Part shown: piece after piece, positions 1 to 9,467 of the stretch
Layout: each line of letters starts with the position of its first letter
How positions within the stretch are numbered: the first letter of the stretch is position 1
Assembly (NCBI GenBank): GCA_021796055.1
Contig: JAJYOS010000185.1
Span: 1 to 9,467 of the forward strand
DNA from: Bacteroidota bacterium
GTDB taxonomy: Bacteria; Bacteroidota; Kryptoniia; Kryptoniales; JAKASW01
Length of the DNA stretch: 9,467 nt
Direction: 5' to 3'
Translations under genes and position numbers: made by a program
The notes under the pieces: generated by a model
What the model was told of the DNA's origin: nothing
The model's database searches: none
The model's input: only the letters and a program-made list of their open reading frames with translations

Positions 1-1242
1 TAGCGCCTCAACATCGACGCCTGCCAGAATTTTCTTCGACAGGCCTGCCTCTATAATGGTTTTCGCGGGAACCGGAGTCGAAACCAGAAATTCGTTGAAG
101 AACGGCTGTGTGTACTTCACGCCGAAGCCGCGGAGTTTTCCGATCTTGTCGGCAAGATAGTGCGCCTTCGCACTCGATTGCTCGGCGACCTCTCGGATTC
201 CCTGCTTGCCCATAAGCGACATGTAAATCGTGGAAGCAAGCATCATGAGGCCTTCGTTGGTGCAGATGTTCGAGGTAGCCTTCTCGCGCCTGATCTGTTG
301 TTCACGCGTCTGGAGTGTCAGGACGAACCCGCGGGCACCTTCGGTGTCGACGGTCACTCCGGCGAGTCTTCCGGGCAGCCGGCGGATCAGCGCTTCCTTC
401 ACCGCAAATATTCCGAGGAACGGTCCGCCGAGGCTCTGTGAAATTCCGAGAGATTGTCCTTCTCCCACTACCACATCCGCTCCATATTCTCCGGGAGCCG
501 CGAGGAGTCCGAGCGAAATCGGCGACGCGTCCACAACGTAGAGAGCTCCTCCGGCATGAGCGACCTCGCCCAGCGCGAAGACATCGCTCAACGTTCCGAG
601 GAAAGACGGCTGCTGGACAAGCACTGCCGCGGTATTACCGTCGACAGCCTTCTTTACGGCAACGATGTCTGCGGCTCCGTCGCGCGGAGCAACTTCTACG
701 ATCTCGAATCCCTGGCCGTGAACGTACGTCCTGACAACCTGCAGATAAAAGGGGTGGATCGGATGCGCGGCGACGATTTTCTTCCGTCCCGTGTGGGCTA
801 CGGCCATAAGCGCAGCCTCAGCCAGCCCGCTGCCAGCATCGTATAATGAAGCGTTGGAAACGTCCATTCCGGTCAGCCGGCAAATCATCGTCTGGTATTC
901 GTAGATCGCCTGCAGCGTCCCCTGGCTCACCTCGGCCTGGTACGGTGTGTAAGCGGTGTAGAACTCAGACCTCCCGAGCAGCGCACCGACTGCCGACGGG
1001 ATGAAATGATCGTAAGCGCCTGCGCCGAGAAACGAAACAGAGTCCTGAGTGTTGATGTTCTTCCCGGCGAGTGAAGCCAGATGCTTCGCCACTTCAAGCT
1101 CACTCATGGCAGGAGGAATTTTCAGGTCGCCTTTCAGCCTGACTTCCTGCGGGATGTCCTTTATGAGCTCTTCAAAATCTTTCACGCCGATCGCGGCCAG
1201 CATGTCACGCCTGTCGTCGTCGGTATTCGGATAATAGGCCAC
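1..1242 (-). CDS. gcvPA: Glycine dehydrogenase (decarboxylating) subunit 1, GcvPA; 3' end cut by window edge
   Basis: This is the N-terminal half-subunit of the two-subunit P-protein of the glycine cleavage system. With GcvPB it decarboxylates glycine and passes the aminomethyl group to lipoylated GcvH in the cytoplasm. The minus-strand frame is open for 414 codons from a GTG start to the window edge. The family is usually about 440-450 residues, so roughly 30 C-terminal residues are missing. Family signatures include GEGQSLG (about residue 260) followed by QSLGGPFLGIF, and REKATSNICTNE (about 319-330), typical of P-proteins. The PLP lysine is expected in GcvPB, not here. I chose the GTG at 1240-1242 because GGAG lies 8 bases upstream and the protein then begins with AYYPNTDDDRRDML, a normal GcvPA N-terminus; the next in-frame ATG would remove that segment. 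It lies about 100 bases downstream of gcvH on the same strand. gcvPB probably follows beyond the edge. Confidence 0.95.
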   Translation of the reverse strand, partial: MAYYPNTDDDRRDMLAAIGVKDFEELIKDIPQEVRLKGDLKIPPAMSELEVAKHLASLAGKNINTQDSVSFLGAGAYDHFIPSAVGALLGRSEFYTAYTPYQAEVSQGTLQAIYEYQTMICRLTGMDVSNASLYDAGSGLAEAALMAVAHTGRKKIVAAHPIHPFYLQVVRTYVHGQGFEIVEVAPRDGAADIVAVKKAVDGNTAAVLVQQPSFLGTLSDVFALGEVAHAGGALYVVDASPISLGLLAAPGEYGADVVVGEGQSLGISQSLGGPFLGIFAVKEALIRRLPGRLAGVTVDTEGARGFVLTLQTREQQIRREKATSNICTNEGLMMLASTIYMSLMGKQGIREVAEQSSAKAHYLADKIGKLRGFGVKYTQPFFNEFLVSTPVPAKTIIEAGLSKKILAGVDVEAL

Positions 1243-1261
1243 TTCTGATTCTCCGTTTTAT

Positions 1262-1349
1262 GAGTAGATAGTAAGCAGAAGGTAGCAGGTAGTAAGCACA
1301 GGGCCCTTAGTTCCCTACCTACTATTCACCTACTACTACCTACTATTTC
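1262..1349. repeat. Intergenic GTAGTAGG-type repeat forming an imperfect inverted repeat
   Basis: The gap between gcvH and gcvPA is filled by two low-complexity arms. The left arm (about 1262-1304) reads as degenerate AGTAAGCA/GGTAGCAGGTAGT units. The right arm (about 1311-1349) is built of CTACCTACTA units, which are approximately the reverse complement of the left. A GGGCCC palindrome (1301-1306) sits between them. The right arm runs into the gcvH stop codon (TAG at 1343-1345). A transcript crossing it could fold into a long imperfect hairpin. No U-tract follows, so it is not an obvious terminator. It may be a dispersed genomic repeat. Confidence 0.6.
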
Positions 1350-1723
1350 CCTACCATCTCCTGATACTTCGCCGCGTCAAGAAGGCTGTTCAGCTCAGCG
1401 ACATCGGCGATCTTCAGCTTGACCATCCATCCGCCGCCGTAGGGCTCCTTGTTGACGACTTCAGGTGAGTCTTTGAGGGCTTCGTTGATCTCGATAATTT
1501 CTCCGCTCACAGGCGCGTAAAGATCGGAGACCGTCTTCACAGCTTCGATCGTTCCGAATTGTTTTCCCTGCTGAAGCTTCGTTCCGACCGCGGGAATCTC
1601 GACGAAGACGACATCGCCAAGCTCACCCTGCGCATACTCGGTAATGCCGACCACGCCCGTACTGCCCTCGACGCGTATCCATTCGTGATCTTTGGTGTAC
1701 TTCAGGTTTTTAGGAAATTCCAT
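1343..1723 (-). CDS. gcvH: Glycine cleavage system H protein (lipoyl carrier)
   Basis: GcvH is the small soluble shuttle of the glycine cleavage complex. Its lipoyl-lysine arm carries the aminomethyl group from the P-protein to the T-protein and is reoxidised by the L-protein. The 126 residues match the usual length of 125-130. The N-terminus (residues 5-17, ending HEWIR) and the lipoylation site, EAVKTVSDLYAP with the lysine at position 63, are canonical, as is the following PVSGEIIEIN turn. The ATG at 1721-1723 has a strong AAAGGAG ribosome-binding site about 6 bases upstream. The gene sits between accC (142-base gap) and gcvPA (100-base gap) on one strand. The lipoate attachment enzyme and gcvT are not in the window. 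Confidence 0.97.
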   Translation of the reverse strand: MEFPKNLKYTKDHEWIRVEGSTGVVGITEYAQGELGDVVFVEIPAVGTKLQQGKQFGTIEAVKTVSDLYAPVSGEIIEINEALKDSPEVVNKEPYGGGWMVKLKIADVAELNSLLDAAKYQEMVGK

Positions 1724-1865
1724 GCCATCTCCTTTAAATAAATAAAAACTCTGAATGCTAAATAATGTTCAAGACTCAAAATCCCAAATCAATAAATCCA
1801 TTCCCTCCAACTTTCATCACCGGGTTAAATCAGAATTTCGGATTTATAGTCCGGGGTTTTTTTCT
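1724..1865. other. AT-rich gap between accC and gcvH with repeat-like sequence
   Basis: This gap holds no convincing gene. It has short AAATC/GATTT-type units (for example 1786-1800) and the 12-mer AATTTCGGATTT at 1834-1845, which recurs exactly at 3218-3229 in the accB-accC gap. A weak CGGA/TCCG hairpin (about 1838-1855) is followed by a T-run on the plus strand, but no plus-strand gene ends here. Several TTGA-type hexamers occur on the minus strand upstream of gcvH, but none has a clear -10 partner at good spacing. Confidence 0.5.
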
Positions 1866-3206
1866 TCAGTCTGCGAAGTTGAAGGAATCCAGGAAGTGAG
1901 TATCGAACTCTCCTTTCCTGAACCGTTCGTCTTTCATCACCTTCAAGTGGAACGGGATCGTTGTCGCGACACCCTCCACCACAAATTCTTCGAGCGCCCT
2001 GTACATCCGGTCGATAGCCTCGTCCCGCGACGAACCGAATGTTATCAATTTTGCCAGAAGTGAATCGTAGTACGGCGGGACTTTGTATCCTACATACACG
2101 TGCGAGTCAGTCCTCACGCCGTAACCGCCCGGAACGTGGAAACCTGTGATTGTGCCGGGGTTGGGGCGGAAGTCTTTATAGGGGTCTTCGGCATTGATGC
2201 GGCATTCGATAGCGTGCCCGGTCTGCTTCAATTTTCTCCTGCTGACCTTCGAGCCGGCCGCAATTCCGATTTGCTCCTTTACGAGATCGAATCCGGTGAC
2301 CTGTTCTGTGACAGGATGCTCGACCTGGATCCGTGTGTTCATTTCCATGAAATAGAAGTTCTTAGACTTGTCGACGAGGAATTCGATGGTGCCGGCACCT
2401 TCGTACTTGACACTCTTCGCACCTTTCACTGCGGCCGCCCCCATCCGCTCGCGCAGTTCTGGATCGACCGCAGGAGAGGGGGACTCCTCGATCAGTTTCT
2501 GATGCCTTCTCTGTATGGAACACTCCCGCTCGCCGAGATGGATTACTTCGCCGTGCTGGTCGCCAAGCACCTGAATCTCGATATGGCGCGGCTGTTCCAC
2601 GTATTTTTCGATATACACGCCGGGATTCCCGAACGCCGCTTCCGCTTCGGTCCGCGCCATCTGGAACTGCCTGTCAAACTCGTCGGGGTTCCAGGCAAGC
2701 CTCATCCCTTTCCCGCCTCCGCCCGCAGTTGCCTTGACGATCACCGGGTAACCGATCGAGTCGGCTGCCTCTTTGGCGGCCTTCGGGTCGTCTATAACTC
2801 CGTCGCTGCCGGGGATGACCGGCACGCCGGCCTTCTGCATCGTTTCCTTCGCGGAAGCCTTGTCTCCCATCATGGTGATCATTTCAGGCCTGGGGCCGAT
2901 GAATTTTATTCCGCTGCTCTCGCATATTTCGGAGAACTTGGCGTTCTCGGAAAGAAAACCGTAGCCCGGATGGATGGCGTCGGCGTTCGTTATCTCCGCG
3001 GCAGCGATGATCCGCGGGATATTCAGGTAGCTTTCACGGCTAGGGGGCGGGCCGATGCAAACAGCCTCGTCCGCAAACCTGACGTGTAACGAATCATGAT
3101 CCGCCTCGGAATAGACCGCCACGGTCTTAACGCCAAGCTCCCTGCAGGTCCTGATGATCCGCAGTGCTATTTCGCCCCTGTTTGCAATCAGTATCTTATT
3201 GAACAA
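1866..3206 (-). CDS. accC: Biotin carboxylase subunit of acetyl-CoA carboxylase
   Basis: AccC carries out the ATP-dependent carboxylation of the biotin on AccB using bicarbonate, the first half-reaction of malonyl-CoA synthesis for fatty acids. The product is 446 residues, the normal length. The N-terminal domain begins [17 protein letters not shown]. The ATP-grasp glycine-rich loop AGGGGKGM lies at 161-168, and the catalytic segment [15 protein letters not shown] at 287-301. The segment around [14 protein letters not shown] (228-241) is also canonical. The start is TTG at 3204-3206, supported by the GAGGA ribosome-binding site 5 bases upstream and by the exact family N-terminus. It is 93 bases downstream of accB. 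The window has no accA or accD, which are often elsewhere. A 329-codon opposite-strand open frame over this gene is a shadow. Confidence 0.98.
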
Positions 3207-3210
3207 TAGA

Positions 3211-3285
3211 GTCCTCTAATTTCGGATTTCGAATTGCGTATTTCTAATCTCAAATCCGCAATCCGACATTCGCAATTCTAAATAT
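3211..3285. repeat. AT-rich intergenic repeat between accB and accC
   Basis: The 93-base accB-accC gap holds variations of CGGATTTCGAATTGCG. GAATTGCG (3231-3238) is inverted as CGCAATTC (3271-3278), and CGGATTT (3223-3229) is inverted as AAATCCG (3252-3258), so a transcript could form alternative hairpins. The 12-mer AATTTCGGATTT (3218-3229) is identical to one in the accC-gcvH gap, in the same orientation. It resembles the AT-rich TTCGAAATTCGGATT-type intergenic repeats seen in many environmental bacterial genomes. I see no coding capacity. Confidence 0.6.
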
Positions 3286-3299
3286 TCACGGATGATTGA

Positions 3300-3788
3300 T
3301 CAAGCCGGCTCTATCAGGAAAAGCGGCTGGTTGTACTCGACCGGTTGTCCGTTTTCGACAAGCGTCTGAACTATCTTGCCTGCGACATCCGACTCGATTT
3401 CGTTCATGAGCTTCATCGCTTCTATGATGCACAGGACGGTGCCTTCCTGTACGCTCGAGCCGATCTGGACGTATGGATCCGCATTCGGAGCCGGGGCCCT
3501 ATAAAATGTTCCGACTATCGGGGAACGAACTTCGTGATGCTTCTTACCCTCCGCCTTGGGCGCAGCGGCCGTTTCCGCCGTCGCGGCGGGGTCGACTTTC
3601 TGTTCGACAGCCGGTTGGGGTGAAAGCTGTGGTTGAGAAATATACTGAGGGATGAAAACCGGAGACGCAGAAGAATTATGGCGGGTCTTGCTCACCCGTA
3701 TCTTCGCCCCTTCTTCCTCAATCTCTATTTCGTCTACCCCGCTCTCGTCGACAAGCTTGACGAGTTTCTTGATGTAGTTAAGGTCCAT
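3300..3788 (-). CDS. accB: Biotin carboxyl carrier protein of acetyl-CoA carboxylase
   Basis: AccB carries the covalent biotin that is carboxylated by AccC and then donates CO2 to acetyl-CoA at the AccA/AccD site. The chosen ATG at 3786-3788 gives 162 residues. It follows GGAG 6 bases upstream and starts with [20 protein letters not shown], a typical AccB N-terminus. The open frame extends upstream to 3890, but that extension is hydrophobic, not family-like and overlaps a terminator-like structure. Residues about 41-85 form the Pro/Ala-rich mobile linker. The C-terminal biotinyl domain carries EAMKLMNEI with biotin on K126. The order efp-accB-accC is common in bacteria. Confidence 0.97.
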
Positions 3789-3851
3789 TTGGTCTCCGAT
3801 GATAAGGTGTCCAGAAACGATCCCGCTCGCGGGAATTCCCACGATAAACAG

Positions 3852-3895
3852 GAAAAGCCGCCACAGTCCGGCTCGCAGGCGGCAAACCACCGGAC
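3852..3895 (-). terminator. Terminator-like hairpin with an interleaved second stem between efp and accB
   Basis: Read on the minus strand after efp, GCCGCC (3883-3878) can pair with GGCGGC (3862-3857), and TTTT follows at once (3856-3853), as in a rho-independent terminator. A second perfect pair overlaps it: GTCCGG (3895-3890) with CCGGAC (3871-3866). The order is A1-B1-A2-B2, so the two stems either exclude one another, as in an antiterminator/terminator switch, or form a pseudoknot. The U-tract is short (TTTTCC) and the terminator loop is 15 bases, so strength is uncertain. It may thin transcription from efp into accB-accC. Confidence 0.5.
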
Positions 3896-3918
3896 CTCGA
3901 CGGGATTTCCCGGCTGGC

Positions 3919-4479
3919 CTACTTCACGCGCTCGACGTAGGCGCCGGTGCGCGTGTCTATTTTGAGAACTTCTCCCTCGTTCACGAAGAGAGGCACATTC
4001 ACTGTCGCGCCGGTTTCCATCCTGGCGGCCTTCATCACGTTGTTGACGCTGTCGCCTTTGATTCCAGGTTCGGTTTCCACGACCTTGAGAGTCACAAAAA
4101 TGGGAATCTCGACGCCTGTAATCTCCGTGCCGTTGAAGAAAATCTGTATGTTCACGTTCTCTTTGAGGAACTTGCTTCCTTCACCGACGACGTCTTCCGG
4201 AACGTGAATCTGGTCATATGTATCGTTGTCCATAAACACCAGCATGTCACCGTCGCGATAGAGATACTGATAAGTGCGCTGCTCGATCCTAACCACATCT
4301 ATATCCTGGCCCGCGCGGAACCTGTTCTCAATCACCTGTCCGGTCTTGAGGTTTCTCATCTTCGCGCGGACAAATGCCCGCCAGTTGCCGGGGTTCACGT
4401 GTTGAAACTCTACAATTGTCCACAGATCGTTGTTATAACGGATCGTTAGCCCTGGTCTGAATTCAGTGGTAGTAGCCAT
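3919..4479 (-). CDS. efp: Translation elongation factor P
   Basis: EF-P binds ribosomes stalled on polyproline stretches, between the P and E sites, and promotes peptide-bond formation. At 186 residues it has the usual length and three-domain layout: an N-terminal KOW-like domain (about 1-62), then two OB domains. The C-terminal signature [19 protein letters not shown] is canonical. The tip of the first domain reads [10 protein letters not shown] (residues 27-36). N32 occupies the position of the modified lysine (E. coli K34) or arginine (Pseudomonas R32), so the known EpmA and EarP modifications cannot occur at that site. The ATG at 4477-4479 has a GGGAG site just upstream. The gene leads the minus-strand block and has a good promoter at 4521-4549. 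Confidence 0.97.
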
Positions 4480-4760: not shown

Positions 4761-5714
4761 ATGAACCCGCACGAGATAACGGCAATAATTAACCCTGTGT
4801 CCGCCAACGGCAAAACCCGTATTATTGCCGGAACCGTTATTGAGTCGCTCAGGCGGCATTTCGGCTCAAGCCTCACCGTCAGGATGACCTCGAGGAGAAA
4901 CGAAGCTGCCGATATTGCCCGGGAAGCCGCCAGCAACGGCAACGAAGCCGTCATTGCCGTCGGAGGGGACGGCACCATAAATGAAATTGTAAACGGGCTG
5001 TTGTCATCCGGGAATGACGGCAATTCCGCATGCGCGCTTGGAATAATCAGCAGCGGAACCGGCCGCGGACTGGCGCAAAGCCTGGGATTGCCGCCGACCA
5101 TAGAAGAACAGGCCAGGGTCATACTCTCCGGGAACACGGGTGTAATTGAAGTAGGAAAAATAAGATGGACGGAAAATGGCGGCAGCCAAAGACTGCGATA
5201 CTTTGTGAACGAATGCCAAGCCGGGATCGGCGGCCACGTCGTTAGAAGTATCGAAGACAGCGGCAAGAAGAGAAACGGCTTCATGGGCTTCGGTCTGACG
5301 ACGCTGAAACTGGCGCTCACATTGAAGAACTTCGATATCCGGGTTTCAATCGACGGAGACGGAATGTACGAAATGCCGATGTTCGGGGTAGTCGTTGCGA
5401 ATGGGACACACACGGGAGGCGGAATGAACCTCACGCCTAATGCGAAGTTCGACGACGGCAAGCTCGACGTGCTGATGATCTGCACGAAGAGTGTGATCAG
5501 CCGCCTCGCAAATCTCCCGAAGATTTATTCCGCGAACCATCTGAAATCGTCCCGGTTCATTTACGTGAAAGCGCGGTCGGTCAGGATTGACTCAAGTGAA
5601 CCGGTACTGCTCGAGGCGGACGGTGAGCTGCTCGGCACGCTCCCTGCCGAAATATCCGTCGTTCCCAATGCACTGCGAGTATACATTCCGACAAACGGGG
5701 GTCGACATGAATAA
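4761..5714 (+). CDS. YegS/LCB5-family lipid kinase (diacylglycerol/sphingosine-kinase-like)
   Basis: Members of this family phosphorylate a lipid hydroxyl (diacylglycerol, sphingoid base or ceramide) with ATP at the inner membrane face. The product is 317 residues, close to the usual 290-320. It shows IINPVSANGK (9-18), the nucleotide-binding GGDGTINEIVNGLL (68-81), SGTGRGLAQSLGLP (98-111), RYFVNECQAGIGG (146-158) and NGTHTGGGMNLTPNAKFDDG (214-233), and ends with a DGE element (288-290). The GTGRGLA segment replaces the more usual GTxND, so substrate should not be assumed. The ATG at 4761 is preferred: AAAGGA lies 10 bases upstream and the family fold begins at once. An in-frame ATG at 4704 would add 19 unconserved residues. 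The next gene overlaps it by 8 bases. Confidence 0.9.
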   Translation: MNPHEITAIINPVSANGKTRIIAGTVIESLRRHFGSSLTVRMTSRRNEAADIAREAASNGNEAVIAVGGDGTINEIVNGLLSSGNDGNSACALGIISSGTGRGLAQSLGLPPTIEEQARVILSGNTGVIEVGKIRWTENGGSQRLRYFVNECQAGIGGHVVRSIEDSGKKRNGFMGFGLTTLKLALTLKNFDIRVSIDGDGMYEMPMFGVVVANGTHTGGGMNLTPNAKFDDGKLDVLMICTKSVISRLANLPKIYSANHLKSSRFIYVKARSVRIDSSEPVLLEADGELLGTLPAEISVVPNALRVYIPTNGGRHE

Positions 5715-6468
5715 GAGCAAAGAGACTTTTCGGGACGCGGCGTTGCGCCTTGAGTTCGAGTACCGGATCTTCGTCTCATTCGGTATCGTCATCGCGGTTG
5801 CATTGATTGCTCTCGGGCCGTTCAATTATCTCCGCTCGCCGGTTGAAGGACTCCTCTCTCTTCTCGGAATTAGCAGCAGCTGGACGGAAAATCTGAAATA
5901 TTTCGCGCCGGCGATCTTCATGGTCGCGGCTAGCGCTCTCCGCATCTGGGCGGGGAGCACGTTAAGCTCGCATCGCATGATGTCGTTCCGCGTACAGACG
6001 GACACGCTTCTCACTGAGCCTCCATACACGCTTTGCAGGAACCCGATTTATCTCGCGGATTTCACCGCGTTCTGCGGATTCGCACTGATCCTTCCCGCGG
6101 TCGCAGTCTCGCTTCCCGTCTTACTTCTGCTTCACTACACACGACTCATCAGGTACGAAGAAGCGGAACTGCGCTGGAAGTTCGGAGCCGAGTACTCGAC
6201 ATACGAGAAACATTCGCCGCCATTCTTCCCGAATTTGAAAAGCATCCGGGCAACAATTCTCTCGGGCCGGGGAATGAGATTCAACGGTGACGGCTTTCGC
6301 CACAACGCGCTTTACCTGTTGTTCATCCCCGGCTTCATCGTTGCAGCTTTCACTCACAATTTCTACCATGCTCTCGCCATCGGTCTTCCGGCGGTTTTCG
6401 ATTGGGCAATAATCCATACGGTCATAGGCACCAGCGATCGCAGACCAACGACAAATTCCGGTGATTGA
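5707..6468 (+). CDS. Integral-membrane PEMT/ICMT-type methyltransferase
   Basis: The 253-residue protein has several hydrophobic segments: about 21-41, 64-84, a long one at 115-147 that may cross twice, and 201-240, probably two passes. The SAM-site motif PYTLCRNPIYL (106-116) and the downstream segment at 151-175 (EE...FGAEYSTY...PPFFP) match the phospholipid/isoprenylcysteine methyltransferase superfamily. That superfamily methylates lipid amines or prenyl-cysteine carboxylates from S-adenosylmethionine at the membrane. The substrate cannot be read from sequence. The hydrophobic tail after the catalytic segment is unusual, because that segment normally lies near the C-terminus. The ATG at 5707 overlaps the kinase stop by 8 bases, with a G-rich GGGGGT just upstream. 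Sitting next to a BtaA-like gene suggests a lipid head-group substrate. Confidence 0.85.
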   Translation: MNKSKETFRDAALRLEFEYRIFVSFGIVIAVALIALGPFNYLRSPVEGLLSLLGISSSWTENLKYFAPAIFMVAASALRIWAGSTLSSHRMMSFRVQTDTLLTEPPYTLCRNPIYLADFTAFCGFALILPAVAVSLPVLLLLHYTRLIRYEEAELRWKFGAEYSTYEKHSPPFFPNLKSIRATILSGRGMRFNGDGFRHNALYLLFIPGFIVAAFTHNFYHALAIGLPAVFDWAIIHTVIGTSDRRPTTNSGD

Positions 6469-6469
6469 G

Positions 6470-7621
6470 ATGAATCCTTTCAAACGACAAAGTGTGTTCG
6501 AAGATATTCTTTACGCGCAGTGCTGGGAAGATCCGTCGATGGATCGAGAGGCACTGGGAATCGCGGGCGACGACACGGTATTCTCGATTACATCGGGCGG
6601 ATGCAACGTTCTCGCTTTCCTGGCGGACTCTCCCCGCAAGGTCATCGCCCTCGACCTCAATCCTTATCAGAATTATCTCCTTGATTTGAAGATAAACTGT
6701 TTCCGCTGCCTCGAACATGACGAGATACTTGAACTGCTCGGAGTCTCTCCATCCGAGCGGCGCCACACGCTCTACATGAAAATAAGAAACGGGCTCGCGC
6801 CTGCAAGCAAGTCCTACTGGAACCGACAACGAGGCAAAATCGAGAAAGGGATCATCCACTCGGGCAGATTCGAAAAGTATATGCAAATGATAAGGGTTCT
6901 CCTCAAGCTGACGATCGGGAAGCGAGCGATCCGCGACATGTTCGAAGCGAAGGATTCTTCCGAACGCGAGTCCATCTTCGAATCGAAGTGGAACAATCTA
7001 CGGTGGCGGTTTCTCACAAAAGTAATTCTGAGCCGGGCCGTCATGAGTCTTCTCTTCACGAAGGCCTTCTTCGCGCAGCTTGGGGCGAATTTATCCTTCG
7101 GCGATCACTTCGCCGGGCGGGCACGAAAAGCGCTCATCTCTCTGAATCCACGCGAGAGCAGCTTCCTTACCTACATACTTCTCGGCAACTATCCGTTCGA
7201 AGAGGGTTTACCGCAGTATCTGAGAAAGCACAATTATGATCGGATCAGGAAAAACCTCGACCGCGTGGAGTTAGTGACAGGTTCATGCGGAGAATATTTC
7301 GCGAGCCTGCCGCCCGACAGCATATCGAAATTCAATTTCACGAACATTTTCGAATGGATGACAAAGGACGAGTTCGAATCGCTTCTCCGCGAGACGGTGC
7401 GGGTTGCCAAAAAAAACGCCGTCATGACTTACAGAAACCTCCTCGTCCACCGTGAACATCCGCGCTCACTCGACAATTCCATTAAATCCGATGAGACCCT
7501 GGCAATTGTTTTGCACGAATCGGACAAGTCGTTTATTTACAACAACTACGTCATCGAGTCGATCGAGAAAGAGAAACAGACATGGGATATCAGGTTATCG
7601 AAGCAGACGGCGGAAATCTGA
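6470..7621 (+). CDS. BtaA-like (DUF3419) S-adenosylmethionine 3-amino-3-carboxypropyltransferase
   Basis: BtaA transfers the 3-amino-3-carboxypropyl group of S-adenosylmethionine to the free hydroxyl of diacylglycerol, giving diacylglyceryl-homoserine, the precursor of the betaine lipid DGTS. The 383 residues fit the family length. The N-terminal YAQCWEDPSMDREAL (15-29) is a family hallmark. The Rossmann SAM site follows: ITSGGCNVLAFL (40-51) and ALDLNPYQNYLLDLK (60-74). The late FNFTNIFEWM (288-297) is also typical. The ATG at 6470 follows the previous stop by one base with GGTGAT upstream; a GTG at 6461 would add three residues but lacks a ribosome site. No BtaB-type N-methyltransferase is next to it. 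The acceptor lipid is inferred; a ceramide-like or other alcohol is possible. Confidence 0.85.
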   Translation: MNPFKRQSVFEDILYAQCWEDPSMDREALGIAGDDTVFSITSGGCNVLAFLADSPRKVIALDLNPYQNYLLDLKINCFRCLEHDEILELLGVSPSERRHTLYMKIRNGLAPASKSYWNRQRGKIEKGIIHSGRFEKYMQMIRVLLKLTIGKRAIRDMFEAKDSSERESIFESKWNNLRWRFLTKVILSRAVMSLLFTKAFFAQLGANLSFGDHFAGRARKALISLNPRESSFLTYILLGNYPFEEGLPQYLRKHNYDRIRKNLDRVELVTGSCGEYFASLPPDSISKFNFTNIFEWMTKDEFESLLRETVRVAKKNAVMTYRNLLVHREHPRSLDNSIKSDETLAIVLHESDKSFIYNNYVIESIEKEKQTWDIRLSKQTAEI

Positions 7622-8694
7622 AGCGGGCTTTTCTGAATTTGTCGGGCCGGATTTACGCCGGCGATCCGTACTACATCCCGCCGATCGGCTCGTATGTAAA
7701 AGACACTCTAGACGCCGACAAAAACCCGTACTTCAGAAATTCATCACTTCGGTTGTTTCTCTGTTTGAGAAACGGAATTGCCGTCGCGCGGACCGCGATC
7801 GTCATAAACTGCCTGTACCTGCAATCTGCAGGAGAGAAAATCGCTTTCTTCGGATTCTTCGAGGCCGAAAATGATCCGCAAGCTGTATCCGCATTGTTCC
7901 GACATGCCGGGCAATATTGCAAAGTCATGGGAGCGACCGTCCTGGAGGGACCGTACAACCCCAACCATTACTCCGATTTAGGGCTGCAGACAGAAGCATT
8001 TGACAAACCGCCGGCGTTTTTCCAGACGCACAACCCGCCTTATTACGAATCGCTGCTGGCGAGTGCGGGTTTCACGAGATCCTTTGAGATTCACACAAGA
8101 AAAAACACCGGCATCAAACAATTCGTCGAACGCAATTTCGGCGGGACTTTCTCATCGGCGTCCGAGTCCGGCTTCCGTGCCCGGCAACTGAACTTGAACA
8201 ATCTGGGCGAAGAGCTGGAAAGAGTGCGGGACGTTTACAACGACGCGTTCGCGTCCAACTGGCGGTTCCTGCCGGTGAGCGCAGAAGAATATGCTTTCTC
8301 CGCGAAATACATCAAGTACGTCACCTCCCCTGAGCTGAACATAATCGTCGAGAAAGGCGGAATTCCTCACGGTGTTCTGCAGTGCGTCTACGACATCAAC
8401 CCATTAATGATGTCACTGCGCGGGGTGCCGATGCCGTTGTTCTACTTGAATTTCATGAGAAAACGGAAAAAGAGCAGGAACCTAATCATCTACGCCGGGG
8501 GAGTCAGGAAGTCGGCGCGTCATTCGGAAGTGAGCAGGCTTCTCTTCGATGCGCTTTGCAGAATCTCGCTCGGCTTCGATTCACTTGAAACGACATGGAT
8601 GTATGACGATAACTCGCCTGCGGTCCGAATTGCGGAGGCGCTCGGGCTTATTCGTGACAGAACCTTCTGGATTCTCAGCAAGCGGCTCGAATAA
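7582..8694 (+). CDS. YghO-like GNAT-fold N-acyltransferase
   Basis: The 370-residue protein matches the family typified by E. coli YghO, a GNAT-fold group. Evidence is the N-terminal IYAGDPYYIPPIGSYVKDTL (23-42) and KNPYF (46-50), then FGFFEAEND (about 91-99) and the stretch from GPYNPNHYSDLGL through FDKPPAFFQ to NPPYYESLLASAGF (about 120-162). Its C-terminal half resembles an acyl-CoA/acyl-ACP N-acyltransferase fold. From memory, the bacterial ceramide synthase of Caulobacter belongs to a related GNAT group, so acylation of a lipid amine is plausible but unproven. The ATG at 7582 overlaps the BtaA stop by 40 bases. The overlapped codons supply the family's N-terminal strand, and no better later start exists, so I take the overlap as real and suggestive of translational coupling. 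Confidence 0.8.
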   Translation: MGYQVIEADGGNLKRAFLNLSGRIYAGDPYYIPPIGSYVKDTLDADKNPYFRNSSLRLFLCLRNGIAVARTAIVINCLYLQSAGEKIAFFGFFEAENDPQAVSALFRHAGQYCKVMGATVLEGPYNPNHYSDLGLQTEAFDKPPAFFQTHNPPYYESLLASAGFTRSFEIHTRKNTGIKQFVERNFGGTFSSASESGFRARQLNLNNLGEELERVRDVYNDAFASNWRFLPVSAEEYAFSAKYIKYVTSPELNIIVEKGGIPHGVLQCVYDINPLMMSLRGVPMPLFYLNFMRKRKKSRNLIIYAGGVRKSARHSEVSRLLFDALCRISLGFDSLETTWMYDDNSPAVRIAEALGLIRDRTFWILSKRLE

Positions 8695-8728
8695 GACAAT
8701 AAACATTTTACAATATTCCTGAAAATCT

Positions 8729-8759
8729 TTGACAGGATGGGTGCGGGTAATCCCAATAT
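8729..8759 (+). promoter_or_regulatory. Possible promoter for the decarboxylase gene
   Basis: A perfect TTGACA (8729-8734) is followed 19 bases later by CAATAT (8754-8759). The spacing is longer than ideal and the -10 is imperfect. Its place in the 94-base gap before the decarboxylase suggests that gene can be transcribed separately from the four-gene cluster. Confidence 0.35.
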
Positions 8760-8774
8760 TATGTCACCACATAA
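8759..8774. promoter_or_regulatory. Dyad TTATGT-CACC-ACATAA, possible operator
   Basis: A perfect 6-bp inverted repeat with a 4-base spacer overlaps the end of the putative -10 and lies just before the GAGGA ribosome site of the decarboxylase. This is where a repressor would sit. The dyad is short, so chance cannot be excluded. Confidence 0.35.
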
Positions 8775-8788
8775 CATGAGGAACCATC

Positions 8789-9467
8789 ATGCAACCGGAT
8801 CCGTCTGATTACGGCCTTACACTCGACAGGGATGAATGCCTCCTGATGGACGGCGTGAAGCTGACAGATGTGGCGAAAGAATTCGGCACGCCGGTGCACG
8901 TGGTGAACGGACAACGATTGGTGAGAGATGCGCAAAAGTTTGCCGACGAGGCAAAGAATTCTTATCCAGGACCCGTCTCTGTGCACTTTGCTTTCAAGTC
9001 CAATTCCGTGCCGGGGATAGTGGAGCTGATCCGTGGGGCGGGATTAAAGGCCGAGGTTATGAGCGAATATGAGTTGACACTCGCGCTCAGACTCGGTTAT
9101 GAGCCGAAAGAAATCATCGTCAACGGCCCGTGCAAAACTCGCGAGTTCCTGGCGCGATGTGTTCAATCCGCCGTCAGGTTCATCCTTGTCGACTCTGCAG
9201 AAGAGCTCATACGAATAGACGAAGTCAGCAGAGAGATCAGAAAGAGGACAAATATCCTTCTGCGCGTGAATCCCGGTTTCAGGCCTGGAAGAATAAATCG
9301 TGGCTCCATCGCGGCAAGCAGAAAAACCAGCCCGTTCGGCCTGGACCTTGTCGGCGGAGAAGTTGAAGAGGCATTGGACTTGGTAGCGGACTTCAGATAT
9401 GTCGACTTCCACGGCTTCCACATCCATATCGGGACAGGAATAAGGAGAAGCGGCGACCACGCGCGCG
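8789..9467 (+). CDS. Fold-III PLP-dependent decarboxylase (LysA/BtrK-like); 3' end cut by window edge
   Basis: This is the N-terminal 226 residues of an alanine-racemase-fold (group IV) decarboxylase. Relatives decarboxylate diaminopimelate, ornithine, arginine or carrier-bound glutamate (BtrK) using pyridoxal phosphate. The PLP lysine is K70 in VHFAFKSNS (65-73). The expected MSEYELTLAL (91-100), VNGPCKT (111-117), LLRVNPGF (157-164) and FHGFHIHIGTGI (207-218) segments are all present in order. Substrate-specifying residues lie in the missing C-terminal half, so LysA cannot be assigned. The ATG at 8789 has GAGGA 6 bases upstream. It follows the N-acyltransferase gene by 94 bases on the same strand. 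It may belong with the lipid cluster or start a new operon. Confidence 0.9.
   Translation, partial: MQPDPSDYGLTLDRDECLLMDGVKLTDVAKEFGTPVHVVNGQRLVRDAQKFADEAKNSYPGPVSVHFAFKSNSVPGIVELIRGAGLKAEVMSEYELTLALRLGYEPKEIIVNGPCKTREFLARCVQSAVRFILVDSAEELIRIDEVSREIRKRTNILLRVNPGFRPGRINRGSIAASRKTSPFGLDLVGGEVEEALDLVADFRYVDFHGFHIHIGTGIRRSGDHAR

Follow-up and report, generated by a model that had tools for sequence, protein, structure and literature searches.

From position 4761 to its end, the window (the whole stretch of 9,467 nucleotides analysed here) carries five genes on the plus strand, designated A to E:

4761..5714, plus strand: A, lipid kinase of the YegS/DAGK family, with DAGK_cat and YegS_C domains and an intact GGDGT motif
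5707..6468, plus strand: B, membrane methyltransferase of the PEMT/ICMT type, with an RNPIY motif
6461..7621, plus strand: C, DUF3419/BtaA-like SAM 3-amino-3-carboxypropyl transferase, with a DUF3419 (PF11899) domain
7582..8694, plus strand: D, tandem-GNAT acyltransferase-like protein, typed from a structure model, its start overlapping the end of C
8789..9467, plus strand: E, fold-III PLP decarboxylase, of which the first 226 residues are present because the window end cuts the gene

The original prediction had listed these five genes, and all of them proved to be real, correctly placed and correctly typed. The product of A matched DAGK_cat, YegS_C and the GGDGT motif, as a YegS/DAGK lipid kinase should; the motif is present at all ten loci described below. 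B scored 36.4 bits against PF04191, above the cut-off of 25, and C scored 240.7 bits against DUF3419 (cut-off 28.2) over residues 10–365, which is the whole protein. D matched no Pfam or NCBIfam family at E≤0.01, PF13444 (OlsB-type) included. Its structure model has a tandem GNAT fold, and the fold neighbours, with acetyl-, myristoyl- and aminoacyl-transferases among them, single out neither a donor nor an acceptor. Sequence searches of the PDB with C and D returned nothing usable.

These five genes open a compact eight-gene unit, A-B-C-D-E-F-P-T, which occurs in distantly related bacteria and whose gene set is well supported. A five-gene cluster had been proposed; it has eight genes in fact, with an aldolase-domain protein (F) and an exporter (P and T) beyond the window. 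Of the 391 class genomes searched with a profile of C, 24 gave matches, ten of them close (E≤7.3e-155) and 14 weaker. In all ten genomes with a close C, which represent seven families, the eight genes stand in this one order on one strand, and the co-occurrence sought by neighbourhood comparison in relatives is thus conserved. We refer to these ten genomes as type 1; types 1, 2 and 3 are labels coined here. Two of the ten loci have gaps: in G266, stretches of N break D and F, and P extends past a contig end; in G000, the window's own genome (93.84% complete), the unit is spread over three contigs. The first of these (C305) matches the window up to base 8514, inside D. The second (C327) starts at window base 8515, is 98.95% identical over 953 bases and supplies the remainder of D, E and F. 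The third (C204) overlaps the second by 499 bases (98.8%) and bears P, T and a 5'-nucleotidase-like gene. The contiguity of D and E is seen directly in the window.

The three genes beyond the window were typed in the same genomes. F has a class II aldolase domain and, at its N-terminus, about 180 additional residues; it scored 60.6 and 68.0 bits against PF00596 (cut-off 22.2), and a fold search matched the aldolase domain. All nine F proteins checked carry an HxH...NHG motif, which we take to be the metal ligands of a class II aldolase. In a phylum-wide draw, F was found in two of 395 genomes, both of this class. Homologues of F with 32–38% identity occur in six genomes of the group g6, where a homocysteine S-methyltransferase-like gene lies nearby in four of the five loci viewed (by family search at one of them; the fifth contig starts too late to tell, and G023 was left out). 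This gives a weak lead towards methionine metabolism or the handling of methylthioadenosine. P is a MacB_PCD/FtsX permease and T an ABC ATPase, which together constitute an ABC exporter of the MacB/DevCA type.

C is present in only two of the 13 genomes of the window's genus, and the unit is therefore patchy in distribution. In a further genome of this genus (G008), P and T adjoin an efp-like gene, at the place where G000 and G010 carry A–F; epimerase-like and other genes lie behind P and T there. The nearest cluster-bearing relative found is the MAG 'Candidatus Kryptoniota bacterium isolate Ww171', with a C that is 71% identical. Across the eight complete loci, the pairwise distances of the eight genes correlate with r of 0.84–0.97, as would be expected for a jointly inherited unit, although species descent alone would give the same. 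Judged by aligned spans, C and D share 10–40 nt in seven of the eight loci measured, while E and F overlap in four of them and lie within 60 nt or overlap in all eight; at L021 the matched frame of E is open, with a stop only where the aligned span ran on. Among the matches listed, a member of the fused B-C family described below is named from Acidobacteriota; relatives of D are named from Aminicenantes and Nitrospirota, and one of F from Acidobacteriota. Parts of the set thus appear to extend outside Bacteroidota, as judged by protein matches and not by gene order. A Spirochaetales record (L015) yielded a short C only, and A, B and D were not found in it. A related gene set was observed on a plasmid (unnamed3) of Roseinatronobacter sp. 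S2. Among the papers listed in the literature searches and judged by titles and abstract openings, a scope in which subscription journals and preprints mostly do not fall, none describes the gene set, and the earlier statement that no such pathway was known holds to that extent.

BtaA is the entry to DGTS, and in the DUF3419/BtaA family SAM is the aminocarboxypropyl donor. In the BtaA/BtaB reaction as given in PMC6302742, BtaA leaves an alpha-amino acid at the lipid end. We compared C with a single presumed BtaA, a Sinorhizobium protein (L062) that is unannotated in its record and was taken as BtaA on a 28.8% match to C and the class I methyltransferase gene behind it. This protein is 24–28% identical to type-1 C and, besides the DUF3419 domain, shares with 17 cluster C proteins 14 invariant columns, among them W22, E23, D24, G47, N49 and D65. 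In the tree, all three cluster types of C lie across a 99/99 branch from this one presumed BtaA, whose own long branch (2.72) was flagged by the tree program as a possible false join. Since C stands apart in this way, its acceptor may be something other than diacylglycerol, and the proposal that C acts on diacylglycerol is weakened to the degree that one long-branched reference allows. With the methyltransferase gene behind the presumed BtaA as query, BtaB was not found in 14 genomes; the best match reached 44 bits at 30% identity, and 13 of the 14 genomes gave just weak class I methyltransferase-like matches. Where the BtaA/BtaB system has BtaB, the cluster has a PEMT-type enzyme, often fused to C, and it adds a decarboxylase, a GNAT protein, a kinase, an aldolase-domain protein and an exporter.

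The fusion is seen in five of the ten type-1 genomes, where B and C form one open frame; the fused protein of L016 scored 21.6 bits against PF04191, below the cut-off of 25. The B part of a fused protein, used as query against proteins of at least 341 residues, gave 195 matches; all 120 of those listed contain PF11899, and 117 of the 120 are 601–643 residues long. By tying methylation to aminocarboxypropyl transfer, the fusion suggests that the product of C is itself methylated. Eukaryotic BTA1 likewise combines the transferase and an N-methyltransferase in one protein, but the methyltransferase of the cluster fusion is a PEMT/ICMT-type membrane part and is N-terminal. The fusion and the failure to find BtaB in the 14 genomes are among the points that support the original prediction.

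The genomes with a remoter C provide a second decarboxylase. Thirteen of the 14 were looked at (G313 was left out), and a PSD paralogue lies beside C in five, whereas eight have neither decarboxylase at C. Four of the five (G020, G128, G289 and G382) constitute type 2, with a run of genes on one strand for an NAD_binding_4 reductase, an A-like kinase, a UbiA-family protein, a PPDK_N/PEP-utilizer protein, a D-like protein, PSD and C; families were assigned by searches on the G020 and G128 genes and by tblastn for the others, and in G382, whose record holds some N, the PPDK_N/PEP-utilizer gene and C are split. In the fifth (G114), PSD and C lie at a contig end. The type-2 clusters of G289 and G382 run on into the same P-T exporter, which is 47–54% identical to that of type 1. 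Each type-1 genome has exactly one PSD, outside the cluster (10/10), whereas each type-2 genome tested has two, one of them directly beside C (4/4); a strong E match is absent from these four, and B has no match in the four type-2 loci. The cluster-type PSD was found in four of 313 class genomes and each time next to C, in a scan that had no row for G382 and in which the G114 gene is split over two contigs, with the neighbour visible for one piece. The LGxST motif is conserved in the four PSDs aligned. In none of the 14 genomes compared were E and the cluster-type PSD both found.

The remaining arrangements have no such enzyme at C. Type 3 (G059 and G085) consists of a PPDK-like gene, C, a 290-residue membrane-like protein, a D-like GNAT and a ligase-like gene, with no decarboxylase. 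In five genomes, all of one family, C lacks these partners, and in G068 it is accompanied only by a weak A-like match. Taking close and remoter C together, 15 of the 23 genomes examined have a decarboxylase with C and eight do not. These eight all fall among the 13 with a remoter C, so that DUF3419 does not in general go with decarboxylation.

PSD, a membrane enzyme, removes the carboxylate from a lipid head group of the alpha-amino acid kind. As a pyruvoyl enzyme it is unrelated to E, and it adjoins C where E is missing and is additional to the genome's usual PSD. The recruitment of two unrelated decarboxylases to C suggests that decarboxylation of the C product is a common step and favours a decarboxylated homoserine-ether lipid, and the action of PSD on an alpha-amino acid lipid end points to the same kind of substrate here. 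It might also be that the type-2 PSD merely supplies phosphatidylethanolamine. Of the predicted decarboxylated homoserine-type lipid, the pairing of C with a decarboxylase has stood (E in 10/10 type-1 genomes, PSD in 5/13 with a remoter C); the end product itself stays putative.

From the observed gene content and order, the fusion, the intact motifs, the separate LysA (see below) and the exporter linkage, we infer each chemical step and the product as follows. C would transfer the 3-amino-3-carboxypropyl group of SAM to a lipid hydroxyl, the presumed acceptor, giving a homoserine-ether head group and methylthioadenosine. E would remove the carboxylate to leave a 3-aminopropyl ether, and the amine would be modified by methylation (B) or acylation (D); it counts against this scheme that both enzymes would need the amine, which cannot be fully used by each. 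A would phosphorylate a lipid hydroxyl of the precursor or the product, F may carry out a further step, possibly on the methylthioadenosine by-product, and P and T would export the product from the inner membrane. An unusual lipid bearing an amine is the probable product and export substrate of the cluster. On comparative evidence, the central idea of the original prediction remains the best single explanation, and we tentatively regard the unit as an operon for modifying and exporting a lipid, with a BtaA-like enzyme at its centre. More tentatively still, the product may represent a new lipid class, a 3-aminopropyl ether derived from decarboxylated SAM-derived homoserine and bearing N-methyl or N-acyl groups; a PLP decarboxylase or, in some lineages, a PSD paralogue would act on the lipid head group, and the ABC system would export the product. 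If so, BtaA-like chemistry joined to a decarboxylase, a methyltransferase, a GNAT protein and an exporter would form a new branch of membrane-lipid chemistry and would provide lipid markers for uncultured relatives of Ignavibacteria and Kryptonia; with a PLP enzyme apparently exchanged for a pyruvoyl one beside C, the proposed reaction lends itself to direct testing. OlsB/OlsA-type aminolipid synthesis likewise uses a GNAT-related acyltransferase to make an amide bond to an amino group, but homoserine would here derive from SAM and not from a free amino acid, and D lacks PF13444. That domain is common to the OlsB/OlsA-type group, according to PMC11631085.

It is rather unlikely that B-C is instead an alternative betaine-lipid synthase, a non-orthologous counterpart of BTA1 in which B replaces BtaB and which yields DGTS or a partly methylated form, with D, E and F turning a free amino acid into some other part or molecule. 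The PEMT family methylates lipid amines, and such an enzyme would account for the B-C fusion, in the loci and in the database proteins alike, and for the failure to find BtaB. However, DGTS needs no decarboxylase, yet one adjoins C in both cluster types; B has no match in the four type-2 loci, and in all ten type-1 genomes B-C is accompanied by D, E and F.

The exporter bears on a further alternative, which we consider unlikely, namely that C modifies a hydroxyl or amine of a non-lipid specialised metabolite, with tailoring by E, D and B and secretion through the MacB-type exporter. Members of the exporter family were found in 18 of 391 class genomes; at four loci (L045–L048) they stand beside FkbH, carbamoyltransferase, methyltransferase and radical SAM genes (by family searches for L045 and by likeness for the other three), in clusters without an evident lipid character. 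Export alone is therefore no proof of a lipid product. The patchy occurrence of close C, in 10 of 391 class genomes and two of 13 in the genus, would also suit a specialised metabolite, as would a Rhizobium plasmid on which a DUF3419 gene stands in a row with KAS III, oxidoreductase and CoF-synthetase genes. Against it, the YegS-type kinase, the PEMT-type enzyme and, in type 2, PSD and the UbiA-family protein are membrane-lipid enzymes. One genome (L043, 72% complete) keeps the type-2 reductase, UbiA-family, PPDK_N/PEP-utilizer and D-like genes together with P and T, without A, PSD or C. A relative of D and the exporter can, on this comparison, serve another product, which weakens the earlier proposal of an acylation of the C product by D; that PSD and C are both missing there is in keeping with a link between those two.

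E resembles LysA in its fold-III family, its PLP-lysine and its EPGR and GPxC motifs. Beyond the window end, the E family has GPxCFxxD where LysA has GPxCE[ST]xD. The Cys is followed by Phe in all ten E proteins, whereas Glu occupies that site in two diaminopimelate decarboxylase structures and in the LysA of the window's own genome. A second LysA-like gene is present in all ten cluster genomes, with the canonical CE[ST] motif in nine; the second copy of the tenth (G105) has CTSLD and may not be LysA. E is therefore not the genome's LysA, and the concern that it might be the only one is removed by the canonical gene elsewhere in nine of ten genomes and by the Glu-to-Phe change in all ten. Against the LysA model TIGR01048 (cut-off 297.9 bits), two full-length E orthologues scored 273.2 and 285.6 bits, and the piece of E in the window, too short to judge, scored 131.4 bits. 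Among the 16 genomes searched, strong E matches occur only in the ten C-bearing clusters. That E is an ordinary lysine-, ornithine- or diaminopimelate-type decarboxylase next to unrelated lipid genes is very improbable, for the good if sub-threshold TIGR01048 scores and the non-canonical G105 copy, which would fit it, are set against the altered substrate site, the canonical LysA elsewhere, the confinement of strong E to C clusters and the close spacing of E and F in all eight loci measured. In the window's own genome, LysA sits between genes reading as lysC and asd, a neighbourhood outside which E lies.

The exporter genes P and T (MacB/FtsX-type ABC exporter) and the biosynthetic genes A–F, which run from the YegS/DAGK lipid kinase (A) to the class II aldolase-domain protein (F), are not always found together, and the relevant stretches in the window and in G008, a genome of the window's genus, are as follows.

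Window 1-4479, minus strand: efp-, accB-, accC-, gcvH- and gcvPA-like genes, their identity read from the sequences
G008 locus (L044) 3219-9868: P-T exporter beside an efp-like gene, with A–F absent

The flanking genes of the window point away from the cluster, which lies in the opposite orientation, and the cluster of G010, of the same genus, is flanked by matches to the same five genes. In G008 the exporter is flanked by efp/accB/accC-like genes, and epimerase/3-beta-HSD-like genes come after P-T, in place of A–F. This arrangement looks like a swap of the biosynthetic genes for others beside a retained exporter. Relatives of the exporter also lie in four further loci (L045, L046, L047 and L048), within clusters of FkbH-domain, carbamoyltransferase, methyltransferase, epimerase and radical SAM genes, with the families confirmed for L045. 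Near the Ignavibacteriota cluster (L016 3490-4890) there is a comparable radical SAM gene. Behind the exporter, a 5'-nucleotidase-like gene was located in four loci:

L014 (G010) 16831-18738: directly behind the exporter, with Por_Secre_tail
L035 1578-3482: directly behind the exporter
L042 2493-4442: directly behind the exporter
L027 261-2141: about 2.6 kb behind the exporter

The window was placed at C305:7519-16985 of its genome assembly, yet contig C305 has 16039 bases, and the last 953 bases of the window (8515-9467) match another contig, C327, at 98.95%. Because C305 is too short for the window's end and the match to C327 is 98.95%, the window and the assembly differ slightly.

In the Ignavibacteriota cluster, the gene set may be regulated, since by ORF reading the following apparently lies upstream:

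L016 5061-8232: histidine kinase and response regulator, directly upstream of A

Homologues of F in genome group g6 (L037-L041) have a class II aldolase-like gene as neighbour; four of the five loci also have a homocysteine S-methyltransferase/MTHFR-like gene there, the neighbouring families having been checked in L037.

The type-2 clusters, whose C, where present, is of the remoter kind, are L010, L026, L027, L035 and L043. They share an NAD_binding_4 reductase, UbiA, a PPDK_N/PEP-utilizer protein and GNAT, and all but L043 also have the kinase, phosphatidylserine decarboxylase (PSD) and DUF3419. A row of genes was also found on a plasmid:

L060 (NZ_CP121116.1, Roseinatronobacter sp. S2 plasmid unnamed3): UbiA, PEP/pyruvate-binding, DUF3419, 439-aa protein, 281-aa protein and AMP-binding gene

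The 281-aa protein is similar to D, the tandem-GNAT protein.
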